Shown here: piece by piece, positions 3,170-60,330 of the stretch
How the letters are laid out: each line of letters opens with the position of its first letter
How positions within the stretch are numbered: the stretch's first letter is position 1
From: Natronomonas sp. CBA1123
GTDB taxonomy: Archaea > Halobacteriota > Halobacteria > Halobacteriales > Haloarculaceae
Assembly (NCBI RefSeq): GCF_009741925.1
Contig: NZ_WPCC01000005.1
Coordinates: forward strand, 1-64,000
Direction of reading: 5' to 3'
Length of the DNA stretch: 64,000 nt
Notes under the pieces: generated by a model
Seen by the model: only the letters and a program-made list of their open reading frames with translations
The model's database searches: none
What the model was told of the DNA's origin: nothing
Position numbers and translations under genes: made by a program

Positions 3170-4263
3170 ATGAGCCAGAGACGACAACTGAGTGCGACGT
3201 TGCTCTCCATCGCCGTCGTCGCGACGATGGTCGGGAGCGTCGTGCTGTTCGGCGCGGCTGTCGCGCCAGCTGCTGCGAGCGACCACACGAAAGACGAAGC
3301 CGAAGACCTCACCGAGCAGTCCGACTTCGAGGTCGTCTTGCCGTACTCGACGGACCACTACCCCGGCGACCAGAACGAAGCCAACGGTAGCATCGAGTAC
3401 TACGCCTCGGGCGGCGACGCCTTCGGCGAAGTTGGAGCAGAAGAGGGGCTGTGGATTGATTACGTCATTATCGACGCCCAGTGGATAGATTACTCCAACT
3501 GCGACGTCTCGAACACGAAGGCCTTCGGCATCGACCGCGGCAACAACAACGACGGAACCCAGACCGACGTCGACCTCGTCCAGAAACAGAAGAACGTCAA
3601 CTTCCGGGACGACGGCATCACCATCGAGATTTACGACTTCAGCGACTTCGCCGGCGACCCGGCGTACATGGCCCCCGAAGACGCCATCGTCGCCGCCCAA
3701 GGCGCCGGCTCACAATCCGGCACCTGCCTGACGATGACGAGCGAACCCGGCTGGTATCAGGTGCAAGGGTTCCTCAACGGCACCGTCGCCGACAACGGCC
3801 CCGACGAAGAGCCCTCCGAGAACGCCGACGAAGTCGGCTTCAAACTGAACTCGAACTACCTCTACGTCTGTGACTGCGACAGCGAACAGGAGGCTCGCGA
3901 ACAGCTCGGCCCGCCGCCGAACGAGGACACCCAGTCTACGGCGACGCCGGAGCCGACCGCAACGCCCGAACCGACTCCGACACCCGACGACACGTCCGAA
4001 TCGACGGCGACACCGGAACCGACCGCAACGCCGGAACCAACCGCAACGCCCGACACCTCGGACTCGGAGGACACCCCCCCCCGAGCCGACCGACGCACCC
4101 GACACGCCACAGCCAACCGACGCGCCGCAGAACACCGCAACGCAGTCCGACGATAGCGGGACGGGCATGACCGCCGACCGCCGGCGCCGGCCCCGGCTTC
4201 GGTCCCGCTGTCGCTGTCCTCGCGTTGCTCGCCAGCGCCCTCGCCGTCATCCGGCGCAGATAA
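3170..4263 (+). pseudogene. P1: surface protein of the P1-P5 family, frameshifted before its PGF-CTERM anchor
   Basis: Starts at ATG 3170 with a signal peptide (cleavage near APAAASDH), then the P-family domain: DHYPGDQNEANGSIEYY, WIDYVIIDAQWIDYSNC, KAFGIDRGNNN, GTCLTMTSEPGWYQ and YLYVCDCDSEQEAREQLG, followed by a Thr/Pro/Glu stalk. A run of nine C (4074-4082) has one C more than the frame needs; reading through it gives an Arg-rich tail stopping at 4156. A second extra base near 4169-4172 is also needed to recover the anchor GPGFGPAVAVLALLASAL and its RRR tail, stopping at 4263. As written, the product would lack the archaeosortase signal and be released rather than anchored. P2-P4 are intact, so this is either a decayed copy, a phase-variable copy or sequence error. 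Confidence 0.8.
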
Positions 4264-13268: not shown

Positions 13269-14204
13269 ATGAAGCACGAATCGACACTTGCCCTCCTTCT
13301 CGTCGTCGTGTGCTCCCTTTGGCTGTTGCCCGCCGGCGTCGGTGCCAACCACGGCGGCAGTCCGACCGATTTCACCACGACGCCGAGCGACCGTACGCCC
13401 AGTGCCAACGGAACGAGCTATCTACTGTCGGCGGAGTTGACCGAGAAGTTCGATAGCTCACCCTCCCTCGCGTATCCCGACCGAATCGTGTTCCAAATCG
13501 AGGACGCAAACTTGAACAACTGCGAGCCGTTCGGCCTCGAGCAGGAAAACTACCGACTCGGCGTGAACAAATCGACGGAGAGCGGCTACCAGTTCCAGGC
13601 GTACGAAGTCCAGGGTGCCACGTGGGACGGCAGCGCCGTCGAGTTCCAGTTCGACACCGAAGACCAACCGAACTACGGACAGGGTGACAAACTGGAACTC
13701 GAACTGCAGGGCTGTGTGTCGAACGCCGACTCGGAGGGGTGGTACCAGTCGGCCGTGCTCGTCGATGGGAAATCCCGGACCGACCGGAACGTCAGTTTCA
13801 CCGACCAGTCACACTACTTCGGGCTCTGTGAGGGCTGTGAGAGCGACGACGACGCGCGGCAGGAACTCGGCCCGGCACCGTCGGACCCGACGCCGACTCC
13901 GGAGCCAACGCCGACGGCAACGCCGGAACCGACCGACACACCGACACCGGCACCGACGCCACAACCGACAGCGACACCGGAGCCGACCGCCCCAGCCACC
14001 GCACAACCGACGGCGACGGCGCAGCCGACGGACACTGCGACACCCAAGGCCACACGGACACCGACGCCGACCGAAGCCGAGAGCGGACCAAACGACGGCC
14101 CACCGTCGGCGTCGACCGTCTTCGGCGTCGACCCGCTCGCCGTCGTCGGTGCCGTCGCCGTCGTCTCCATCGCGCTCGCGGCGCTCGGCGCTCGACGGTT
14201 ATGA
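13269..14204 (+). CDS. P5: divergent member of the surface-protein family, stalk plus C-terminal membrane anchor
   Basis: A 311-residue exported protein with a signal peptide ending near GVGANHGG. Overall similarity to P1-P4 is low, but the framework is the same: NNCEPFGLEQ matches the first conserved Cys region, QGCVSNADSEGWYQ the second, and YFGLCEGCESDDDARQELG the third, where CxxC replaces CxC. A long Thr/Pro/Ala stalk leads to a C-terminal membrane segment (DPLAVVGAVAVVSIALAAL, then GARRL) without a clear PGF motif. GTTTTATCC about 28 nt before the ATG looks like the TATA box of a leaderless transcript. It ends 2 nt before the convergent tRNA-Cys. Confidence 0.82.
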   Translation: MKHESTLALLLVVVCSLWLLPAGVGANHGGSPTDFTTTPSDRTPSANGTSYLLSAELTEKFDSSPSLAYPDRIVFQIEDANLNNCEPFGLEQENYRLGVNKSTESGYQFQAYEVQGATWDGSAVEFQFDTEDQPNYGQGDKLELELQGCVSNADSEGWYQSAVLVDGKSRTDRNVSFTDQSHYFGLCEGCESDDDARQELGPAPSDPTPTPEPTPTATPEPTDTPTPAPTPQPTATPEPTAPATAQPTATAQPTDTATPKATRTPTPTEAESGPNDGPPSASTVFGVDPLAVVGAVAVVSIALAALGARRL

Positions 14205-22443: not shown

Positions 22444-23497
22444 ATGCGTCTCTACGACCTGGTGAAACCGATTCTGTTTCAGCTAGACGCCGAAACCGCC
22501 CACAGAAGCGTCCACACCCTCCTGGGAGCTGTCGAGGGAACCGCAGCCGAGCAGTTGCTCGCCGATTACTACACCGTCGTCGACTCCCGACTCTCCGTCG
22601 AGGCCTTCGGGCAGCGCTTCAACAACCCGGTCGGGGTCGCCGCCGGCTTCGACAAGAACGCCGAAATCCCTCGCACGCTCGCGGCCCTCGGCTTCGGACA
22701 CGTCGAAGTGGGCGGCGTCACAGCCGAACCGCAGGCCGGCAACCCCCGCCCACGGATGTTCCGCCTGCCGGAGGACCGAGCGCTCATCAACCGCATGGGC
22801 TTCAACAACGACGGCGCCGACATCATCGGCGAACGCCTCGCCGAAACCGACTGCAAAGTGCCCGTCGGCGTCAACATCGGCAAGTCGAAATCGGCCCCGA
22901 ACGACGAGGCCGAAGCCGACTACCGCTACACCTTCGAGCGTGTCCGCGAGGGGGGCGACTACTTCGTCGTCAACGTCTCCTCGCCGAACACCCCCCGGAC
23001 TCCGCGAACTCCAACAGCGCGACCGCCTCGAATCCATCCTCGGGACACTCCAAGACGCCGGGGCCTCGCCGTTGTTGGTGAAGCTCTCGCCGAACCTCAC
23101 CGACGCCGCCACGGAGGACGCCCTGGCCGTCGTCGACGACCTCGATTTGGACGGCGTCATTGCGACCAACACCTCCACGGACCGACCTACCTCGCTTCGA
23201 GGAGAGGCTGCCAACGAGGAGGGCGGCCTCTCCGGAAAGCCAATCGAGGAGAAAGCGACGAGCATGGTCCGGTTCGTCGCCGAGCGAACCGACAAGCCCG
23301 TCGTCGGCGTCGGCGGCATCTCCGACGCGGAGGGCGCCTACGAGAAGATACGCAACGGCGCCAGCGTCGTCCAGCTGTACACCGGTCTCGTCTACGAGGG
23401 GCCCGCCATCGCACGCGATATCAACCGCGGACTCCTCGAGTTGCTCGAACGGGACGGCTTCGACTCCGTCGAAGACGCCGTCGGCGTCGACCTCTAA
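22444..23497 (+). pseudogene. pyrD: Dihydroorotate dehydrogenase (class 2) with a +1 frameshift
   Basis: PyrD oxidises dihydroorotate to orotate in pyrimidine synthesis using FMN and quinone. The N-terminal half in one frame carries MRLYDLVKPILFQLDAETAH, GFDKNAEIPRTLAALGFG and VVNVSSPNTP. The frame then breaks in a run of six C (22991-22996). With five C the protein continues PGLRELQQRD through LLVKLSPNLTD, IATNTSTDRP and VVGVGGISDAEGAY to the stop at 23497, giving a full 350-residue enzyme. The break falls inside the catalytic SSPNTPGLR motif. No other pyrD is in view, so a sequence error is likely; if real, the strain would depend on another copy or uracil. Confidence 0.9.
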
Positions 23498-34334: not shown

Positions 34335-35197
34335 ATGAACCCGACACGCAGACGAACGCTTCGAGCGCTCGGCGCTACCCTCGCAGGGACGGCGCTGGCA
34401 GGCTGTCTCTCGGATGACGAATCGACCGACGACCCGAGCGGCGACAACGGCGACAGCGGCGTGAGCGTACAGGACATCACCGCGACGCCAGCAGTCGTAA
34501 CGCTGAACTCCCCGGATTCGTACGGGACCTACGGCGGCCGGAACGAACAGCTGATTATCGCGAATATCTCGGTCGAATCGCCCGGTGACCACCCGGCCTC
34601 GTCGTTTTCCGTCGAGCGTCCGGGGAGCAATACGAGGTGACGACGAAAATCGGTCGTCAGGGGCGACTGGAAACGTTCGGCGACGCCTACGAACCGAACG
34701 ACGGGAGTTCCCCGACCGCAAGCGCCAGTGCCAGCGAGGACGGCGAAACCGGGCCGTCGTCGGGGTGGATTGCGGCGTACGTCCCGAAACCGCTCGACGC
34801 CGACTCGGCGACGCTGACGTGGGACGGCGGCGAGTACACCGTCGGCGATTCCGTCCTCGAACGGTTGAACCGGCCGCCAGCGTCGTTCGACGTGACCTTC
34901 GAGGCGCCCGAGACGGCGACAGTCGGCGAGACGGTGACGGCGACGGTGACCGTCGAGAACACCGCCGACGTCGACGGGACGTTCGTCGGCGCGATAAATC
35001 GGGTCGGGCCACGAATCGCCTACGCACCCGAAACGGAGGTGCGACTGGACATCGAGGCCGGCGAAACCGCCGAGTGGGAGTACACACACAGCCTCGACAG
35101 TTCCGAACTCGACGAGATGGAGGACCCGTCGATGGATATCCACCTCGTCTGGCGTGACAACTCGACGGTCCGGACGGTCGATATCGAAAGCGAGTGA
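34335..35197 (+). pseudogene. Tat-exported haloarchaeal lipoprotein with a -1 frameshift
   Basis: The first frame (34335-34640) encodes RRRTLRALGATLAG and lipobox LAGC, then an acidic spacer and a beta domain ending SSFSVERPG. It then stops. The second frame (to 35197) continues GEQYEVTTKIGRQGRLETFG and a beta-sandwich region (FEAPETATVGETVTATVTVE) typical of extracellular adhesion-like domains. A run of four G at 34622-34625 would join the two seamlessly if it had five (VERPGEQYEV). I read this as one 287-residue lipoprotein broken by a missing base, not two coupled genes, although a GTGA overlap exists. Function unknown. Confidence 0.8.
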
Positions 35198-43310: not shown

Positions 43311-43508
43311 ATGGACCGTGATGCCGTCGTCGAAGCCATCGTCGCGTTCGTCGGCGTTGCCACACTTGCCGCCATCATCCTCTACATCGGTAACACGTAC
43401 AACGACGGCGGGCTTTCGGGCGACGGCGGCGTCGCCCTGGTCGGCGCTATCGCCTTCTTCATCGTCTTCATGTCCGTCATCGGCGTCGGCCTCTCCCGGC
43501 GCTACTGA
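43311..43508 (+). CDS. Small two-segment haloarchaeal membrane protein
   Basis: A 65-residue protein starting MDRDAVVEAIVAFVGVATL, with membrane segments at residues 6-26 and 40-60 joined by a Gly/Asp loop (YNDGGLSGDGG), and ending GVGLSRRY. It is conserved-looking and haloarchaeal in style but not functionally characterised. Its last bases overlap the 3' end of the convergent priL by 7 nt. The 200 nt upstream (43109-43310) hold only a promoter-like region. Confidence 0.75.
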   Translation: MDRDAVVEAIVAFVGVATLAAIILYIGNTYNDGGLSGDGGVALVGAIAFFIVFMSVIGVGLSRRY

Positions 43509-44567
43509 GCGCGCCAGTCAGTTAGCTGCTCTTCCGGTGCCGCCTCCAGCCGCTGTTCGTAGTATGACAGCGGGTGCTCGATTGACTCACACAGCTCGTC
43601 TTTGTCGACACAGTCGCCGTAGTCGTCCATGACCGCACACGACGGCGGCGCCGCGACCGACCCCTCGCCGTCAGCCCCGCGGAGTCGGTCGACCTGCGCC
43701 CGAATCGAATCGGCTGCCTCCCCCTCTATCGCACACAACTCGACGACCTCGTCGCGGTCAAGGCCGGCACTCACGAGGAAGGCAACGAGCGAGAACCGCG
43801 AGCGGTCGGGGAGTGCCTCCCCCTCCCGAGCGCGAGTCAGCAGCGCACGCATACACGGCGGGAACAGTCCCGGCACCACCGCATCGAACGCCGTCGGCGG
43901 GTCGAGGTCAGCGACGCTGCGGCGAATCGCCGACAGCTCCGAATCGAGCGGGTCACCGATGCCCTCGGGCACCGACAGCGGAAGCCCCTCCTCGACGCGC
44001 CGGCCGACGGCCTCCCGAAGCAGCGTGTACAACTCCGGCCGCGAGACGGGGACGCGCCCCGAGTCGAGCGGTCGGCCGACGAGACGCCACCGCTCGCCCG
44101 ACAGCGCCGCCGCGAGTTCGAGATACGCCGTGACCGCGACGCTGAACTCGCCGTCGCCGGTGGGTTCGATACGCCCCGATAGCCCGAAATCCGCGAGCAG
44201 TCGGTCGAGCGTCAGCCGCTCGCCGCCCGCGCTCTTCAGCTCCAAATCGGCCTCGAAATCCTCGACGAACCGCTCGCGTGCCGTCGCGGCCTCGGCGGCC
44301 GCGTACTTCTCGACGGCACCCGGTACGTCCAGAAGCGAAACGAGCACGCGAGCGACCGGATAGGAGAGCAGTTCCGCCCGGTCGCTCCACGCTCGTGGCT
44401 CCTCGGCTTCGGTAGTCCCCTCCAACAGCGCGCGCTGGACGCGCTCGCGGCCGCGTTCGACGGCCGGACCCCCCCTCGACGACGAGGGCTGCGAGGTCGA
44501 CCTCCGCGGCCTCGACTGCCTCGCGGGAGGCGTCGAGGAACGGGTACCGAGCGTGGAGCCGCTGCAT
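43502..44567 (-). pseudogene. priL: DNA primase large subunit PriL with a +1 frameshift
   Basis: PriL partners the catalytic PriS in making replication primers and holds an Fe-S cluster. Translation from ATG 44567 gives MQRLHARYPFLDASREAVEA and DLAALVVEGG. A run of seven C on the plus strand (44469-44475) then shifts the frame; with six, the protein continues GPAVERGRERVQRALLEG and runs through SRPELYTLLREAVGRRVEEG, the Cys-containing FPPCMRALL, SCAVMDDYGDCVDKDELC and HPLSYYEQRLE. The Fe-S cysteines are all present downstream. PriL is essential, so a base-call error is the most likely cause. Confidence 0.9.
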
Positions 44568-59425: not shown

Positions 59426-60330
59426 TGTTCACCCTCCGTGTAGGCGGCGAAGAGGTCCTCGAGCGGCGCTTCCTCCGTCGAGAAGTCCGACACCGTCGCA
59501 CCCATCTCCTCTAGCTCGGAGATGACGGTCATCTTCGCGTCGTCGTCACAGCCGACACGGAGCGTCGTGCCGTCGACGGTGACGCTGTCGATGCCCTCCA
59601 TGCTCTTCAGGCGGTGGCTCACGTCGTCGGGCACCGAATCGACTTCGACGATGAGCGTTTCCCCGCCGGCGACGTTCTCCCGGAGGCCCTCGATGGTGTC
59701 GACGGCGACGAGTTCGCCCTCGCGGATGATGCCGACGCGGTCACACACCGCCTCGACCTGCCCGAGGATGTGGCTAGAGAAGAAGACGGTCGTACCGTCG
59801 GCGGCCTCTTCCTCGACGAGTTCGCGGAGTTCGCGGGCGCCATTGGGGTCCAGCCCCGACGACGGTTCGTCGAGGATGAGGAGGTCGGGGTCACCGACCA
59901 GCGCCATCGCGAGGGCGAGGCGCTGGCGCATCCCCGTCGAGAAGCCGCCGGCCTTCCGGTCGACGGCGTCTTCGAGGCCGACGCGTTCGAGGAGCGGGTA
60001 GGGGTCGTCGTCTGCGTCCTTCGAGTCGATGGCGAACTGGAGGTGTTCGCGGGCGGTCAGTCGGTCGTAGAGGTCGAAGCCTTCGGGGAGGACGCCGGTT
60101 CGTTCCCGGACGGCGACGCTCTCCTCGCGGGCGTCGTGGCCGAGCACGCGGGCGGACCCCTCGTCCGGCCGGACGAAATCGAGGACGATGTTGATGGTCG
60201 TCGACTTGCCGGCGCCGTTCGGACCGAGGAAGCCGAACACCTCGCCTTCTTCGACTTCGAGGTCGACGCCGCGCAACGCCTGCACGTCGCCGAACCCCTT
60301 CCGTACGTCGTCCAATTCGATGGCGGCCAT
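59422..60330 (-). CDS. ABC transporter ATP-binding protein (ABC-2 exporter)
   Basis: A 302-residue ATPase of the CcmA/NatA/NosF type. Walker A is GPNGAGKST near residue 39, the signature is FSTGMRQRLALAMAL, Walker B is LLILDEPSSGLDPNG and the switch is FFSSHILGQVEAV. A C-terminal domain of about 90 residues (LIVEVDSVPDDVSHRLKSME) is common in this group. Position and 4-nt overlap make it the partner of the permease at 58571-59425. Confidence 0.95.
   Translation of the reverse strand: MAAIELDDVRKGFGDVQALRGVDLEVEEGEVFGFLGPNGAGKSTTINIVLDFVRPDEGSARVLGHDAREESVAVRERTGVLPEGFDLYDRLTAREHLQFAIDSKDADDDPYPLLERVGLEDAVDRKAGGFSTGMRQRLALAMALVGDPDLLILDEPSSGLDPNGARELRELVEEEAADGTTVFFSSHILGQVEAVCDRVGIIREGELVAVDTIEGLRENVAGGETLIVEVDSVPDDVSHRLKSMEGIDSVTVDGTTLRVGCDDDAKMTVISELEEMGATVSDFSTEEAPLEDLFAAYTEGEQ

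Follow-up and report, generated by a model that had tools for sequence, protein, structure and literature searches.

Two frame breaks in a PGF-CTERM surface-protein gene of the Natronomonas sp. CBA1123 draft assembly, probably sequence errors

The P1 locus and its family

The window analyzed here, 64 kb in length, is the start of a 117-kb contig (C40) of the Natronomonas sp. CBA1123 assembly, a draft in 89 contigs. Its forward strand carries four tandem paralogs, of which P1 (3170–4156 as assembled, 328 amino acids plus stop) is the first. The three genes that follow, P2 (4368–5468), P3 (5588–6703), and P4 (6833–7900), are intact forward-strand genes, as a preliminary description of this DNA had recognized, and end in PGF-CTERM anchors scoring above the family cut-off. 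The frame of P1 opens at 3170 with a signal-like N-terminus (judged by eye), passes through an ectodomain and a TPEP stalk, and closes at 4156 after an arginine-rich tail that is out of frame. The point of departure from the stalk is a run of nine C at 4074–4082, beyond which the stalk goes on in the next frame. A second break lies at 4171–4172, where P1 has CC and where P2, P3, P4, and the closest orthologs of P1 from two other genomes have a single C. Because of this additional C, the PGF-CTERM anchor with its stop (4174–4263) is found in a third frame, so that the start of P1, the end of its stalk, and its anchor occupy three different frames. The anchor itself scores above both family cut-offs, with a Pfam PGF-CTERM match of 22.3 bits at 4192–4260 (cut-off 18.8) and a match of 31.7 bits to NCBIfam TIGR04126 over 4174–4260 (cut-off 24.5). 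Thus the preliminary description was right that the nine-C run puts P1 off the frame of its anchor, that a second extra base lies near 4170, and that the anchor is otherwise intact. Its count of one C too many in the run holds as a net shift of +1, but compared with the orthologs the run is longer by four bases rather than one.

Substrates of archaeosortase A (TIGR04126, PF18204) carry an in-frame C-terminal PGF motif followed by a hydrophobic stretch and a basic tail. P2, P3, P4, and both closest orthologs of P1 have all of these together with a stalk, whereas P1 as assembled never reaches the motif in frame, its anchor elements being present in the DNA in another frame. The genome also encodes two ArtA-type archaeosortase genes above the cut-off, which lie about 1.2 kb apart on contig C55 (775–1623 and 2789–3649; L067 and L068). 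Elsewhere in the window, positions 13269–14204 encode another stalked surface-type protein, which has a C-terminal hydrophobic stretch and no PGF motif.

The closest matches of P1 that were compared come from a genome of the same genus (G009) and from a second relative (G015). Both orthologs are whole, at 363 and 364 residues, respectively. In the alignment, the site of the nine-C run reads as five C in G009 and as CACCC in G015, and each has a single C where CBA1123 has CC at 4171–4172. P1 has an open frame through its first 257 residues, and over these it matches the G009 ortholog at 96% identity. A wider search of 40 genomes returned 76 family matches in 12 of them, and 30 of these matches were read as loci. 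The 30 include P1 itself, one weak match that is not clearly a member (L024), and one truncated at the end of its contig (L032); all of the remaining 27 end in an anchor-like tail, with PGF in 23 and PGM, AGM, or AGF in four. Outside P1, the longest G/C run of each of the 29 loci measures four to six bases. A further pair of matches proved to be one distant family member in G009 (contig C1, about 3226100–3227117; L180) whose coding sequence is divided between two frames. No G/C run of at least six bases lies near it, and its second part retains an anchor-like tail. Members of this family may, therefore, really break.

Slippage at the nine-C run

Poly-C and poly-G contingency loci are slipped-strand phase-variable surface genes, and a C tract of nine bases in a surface-protein gene next to intact paralogs resembles them. 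The preliminary description accordingly raised the possibility of a switch in which slippage toggles P1 between an anchored and a released form. In a locus of this kind, the length of the tract alternates between a full and an altered product, the tract is kept in orthologs, and such tracts are concentrated in surface or otherwise variable genes. The P1 locus differs on each count. When products were computed for run lengths of 4 to 13 C, none of the ten reached the anchor. Between the run and the anchor lie the second indel and, in the frame of the anchor, a TGA at 4168–4170 that bars any single slip in the C run from reaching it. A switch by the length of the C run alone is thereby ruled out for these lengths. 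Moreover, the tract is not found in the two orthologs or in the other family loci that were read, P1 has its second break, and the G/C runs at which this assembly breaks frame lie not only in surface genes but also in housekeeping genes (see below). We consider a phase-variable locus highly improbable.

The tract is the sole C or G run of at least eight bases within the window. When the window was shuffled 100 times with dinucleotides preserved, 50 of the shuffles had at least one run of nine C; taken alone, the tract is not beyond chance. A hairpin cause was considered and rejected, as the DNA strand at 4156–4215 folds no better than its shuffles (z = −0.17). For the stretch at 4060–4110, the corresponding value is z = −1.04.

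Homopolymer tracts have been proposed to serve prokaryotes generally as a means of regulation, with 18 archaeal genomes included in the survey, although the proposal, as excerpted, draws on tracts of poly-A and poly-T close to the starts of genes (PMC2831843). The excerpted portion of another study (PMC3711429) expects singleton frame-broken genes to result from indel mutations or errors of sequencing, while phase variation may be among the causes where such genes cluster. Among the matches listed for archaeal phase variation, archaeosortase, and homopolymer or sequencing error, the titles and abstract openings mention no poly-C switch in a PGF-CTERM gene.

Frame breaks elsewhere in the assembly

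Breaks like those of P1 are found in genes of quite different function. Within the window, pyrD (dihydroorotate dehydrogenase; 22444–23497, forward strand) is split by an extra C at 22991, which makes a sixth C where G009 has five. The gene for the large subunit of DNA primase, priL (43502–44567, reverse strand), is split near 44468 by one extra base beside a run of seven C. In whole-genome searches, pyrD and priL were each present in CBA1123 as two pieces only, with no other copy matched, while all five relatives examined have one full match to each in one open frame, with listed stops at the gene end. On another contig (C9), rfcL is frame-broken at an eight-base G/C run. According to the excerpted text of PMC7776575, Haloferax volcanii cannot do without PriS/PriL or any of the three RFC proteins. 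An error of assembly or sequencing would be expected to leave like breaks in housekeeping genes that a cell cannot spare, and priL, pyrD, and rfcL provide three such cases; the essentiality of PriL and RFC is taken from Haloferax, and the test of copy number covers priL and pyrD.

Conserved genes of C40 and of the first 200 kb of C9 were compared with G009. Eleven of 187 conserved G009 genes show a frame change in CBA1123, and eight of the 11 are, by our own sorting, internal and specific to this assembly. These eight are P1, pyrD, priL, rfcL, a flavin monooxygenase-like gene, a P-type ATPase gene, a pyranose-oxidase-like gene, and the gene at window positions 34335–35191, which is divergent and the weakest of the set. 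The three set aside (G009 genes 75307–76689, 59625–60119, and, in g9b, 160127–161527) change frame near their N-termini, where the choice of start may be wrong. In the reverse comparison, nine of 186 genes change frame. Six of these are the same sites viewed from the other side, and the other three, all N-terminal (C40, 82451 and 81287; C9, 27442), may reflect either wrongly chosen starts or breaks in G009. Five of the eight sorted breaks (P1, pyrD, priL, rfcL, and the pyranose-oxidase-like gene) fall at G/C runs of six to nine bases, and G/C runs of at least seven bases number eight in CBA1123 versus one in G009 over a matched 200 kb. Both observations are in keeping with errors of homopolymer length; the remaining three breaks lie away from G/C runs and count against such errors as a complete account.

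Across the genus, CBA1123 has the highest number of C or G runs of at least eight bases, with 23, among the 20 genomes searched. The surroundings of 21 of these runs were read, and at 11 of the 21 both flanks are confidently coding on a single strand. By a codon-score frame test with flanks of up to 600 bases, which replaced flanks of 210 bases that were too noisy and whose thresholds were chosen after the 210-base result was known, nine of the 11 testable runs are out of frame. The class of the P1 run in this test is clear on one side only. Seven of the nine lie in named families other than surface or variable genes, namely a methyltransferase, RfcL, UDP-glucose dehydrogenase, an Rce1-like protein, an E1 dehydrogenase, an acyl-CoA dehydrogenase, and a metallo-hydrolase; the other two match none.

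The large number of long runs in CBA1123, above that of all the other 19 genomes, could also be read as the mark of a mutator strain without mismatch repair, in which homopolymers have really grown genome-wide. We regard this as the least probable of the explanations weighed here. Open frames scoring above the cut-off exist for two MutS-type genes, and the genome also has an open NucS gene. The mutL gene falls across an unassembled gap of about 130 bases between the start of contig C6 (L176) and the start of contig C64 (L177); neither contig end carries an insertion or other foreign sequence, and the gene may or may not be intact. In addition, even a mutator would not survive breaks in essential genes.

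Long runs are not confined to CBA1123. Relatives range from 19 runs of at least eight bases (G019) and 12 (G002) to six (G009) and none (G015 and G018). In the same frame test, the out-of-frame runs amount to none of one in G009 and none of none in G001. In G016, a genome of two contigs, all three testable runs of at least eight bases are out of frame (L163, L164, and L165), and the behavior is, therefore, not unique to CBA1123.

Sequence error, decay, and other origins of the P1 breaks

The preliminary description noted that the need for two indels favors decay or error. This expectation is supported by the present analysis, and of the two we find error the likelier. The breaks in P1 are most likely errors in the assembled sequence, because like breaks split housekeeping genes in the same assembly, and we give this reading, which rests on sequence comparison, a probability of roughly 0.7. 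We infer that the breaks in P1 probably share the cause of the breaks in the housekeeping genes. The assembled P1 would then contain an over-long C run at 4074–4082 and, some 90 bases further along, an extra C, all in a stretch rich in G+C, and errors of homopolymer length and nearby errors in a draft assembly could be the common technical cause in P1, pyrD, priL, and rfcL. Several lines of evidence point this way. Both closest orthologs of P1 are whole; pyrD and priL each owe their split to a single extra base, within a C run or next to one, and are whole in five of five relatives; rfcL is essential in H. volcanii and is broken at an eight-base G/C run; and the unassembled part of mutL is what would be expected of a patchy draft. 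The prevalence of breaks at G/C runs, in the comparison with G009 and in the frame test alike, and the excess of runs of at least seven bases over G009 are consistent with the same origin. There is also a precedent in haloarchaea, as three single-base poly-C or poly-G differences in Halobacterium were judged likely sequencing errors in the excerpted part of PMC11834397. The CBA1123 cases resemble these homopolymer-length errors in that single bases break the frame at G/C runs, and do so in unrelated genes, some of them essential in a relative.

Some features of the locus fit sequence error less well. Unlike a homopolymer-length error, the second break of P1, at 4171, lies outside any long run, being CC versus C, and would need another kind of error within 100 bases of the first. 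The nine-C run is four bases longer than the corresponding site in the orthologs, and part of this lengthening may be real. Long G/C runs also occur in G019 and G002, and runs that disrupt the frame in G016. Finally, the split family member in G009 shows a break with no comparable G/C run nearby. This last case lowered our confidence in sequence error slightly, from about 0.74 to the present value, and raised that in genuine decay by a similarly small step.

Genuine recent decay is the main rival. Here both indels would be real, P1 would yield a truncated, unanchored protein, and P2, P3, and P4 would cover its function. Both indels do set CBA1123 apart from the two orthologs, the three neighbors of P1 are intact, and a distant member of the family is likewise frame-broken in G009. 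Differences specific to P1 are also dense toward its 3′ end, with 22 in 4071–4263 versus 21 in the longer stretch 3170–4070, indel columns included. Against this, most of P1 is still open and nearly identical to the G009 ortholog, the anchor still scores above its cut-off, and it is difficult to regard the comparable breaks in priL, pyrD, and rfcL as tolerated decay. On balance, decay appears unlikely, though a reading to be taken seriously.

The same cluster of differences bears on ectopic gene conversion from P4, or a chimeric assembly of P1 and P4 reads, either of which might have rewritten the 3′ end of P1 and left indels at the junctions. P4 matches 12 of the 22 P1-specific differences in 4071–4263 versus seven of the 21 in 3170–4070, counts that include indel columns and carry no significance test, and a three-base deletion is common to the 3′ end of P1 and to P4. 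However, the likeness to P4 is patchy and P4 has neither indel, and we consider such an origin very improbable, on a par with phase variation. Still less probable is that the breaks at G/C runs are real and are tolerated, in surface and essential genes alike, through transcriptional slippage or ribosomal frameshifting. If that were true, the P1 product would comprise both the anchored and the released form.

Sequence error thus remains our preferred explanation, and it carries a wider caution, as a tempting signature of phase switching can stem from an error in a draft assembly. A quick test is to search the housekeeping genes on the same contig for similar breaks. Frameshifts in the CBA1123 assembly, by extension, should not be taken as biology without the reads. 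For the organism itself, the preferred reading would make P1 an intact gene, encoding a surface protein with an anchor of the archaeosortase A type like those of its three neighbors.
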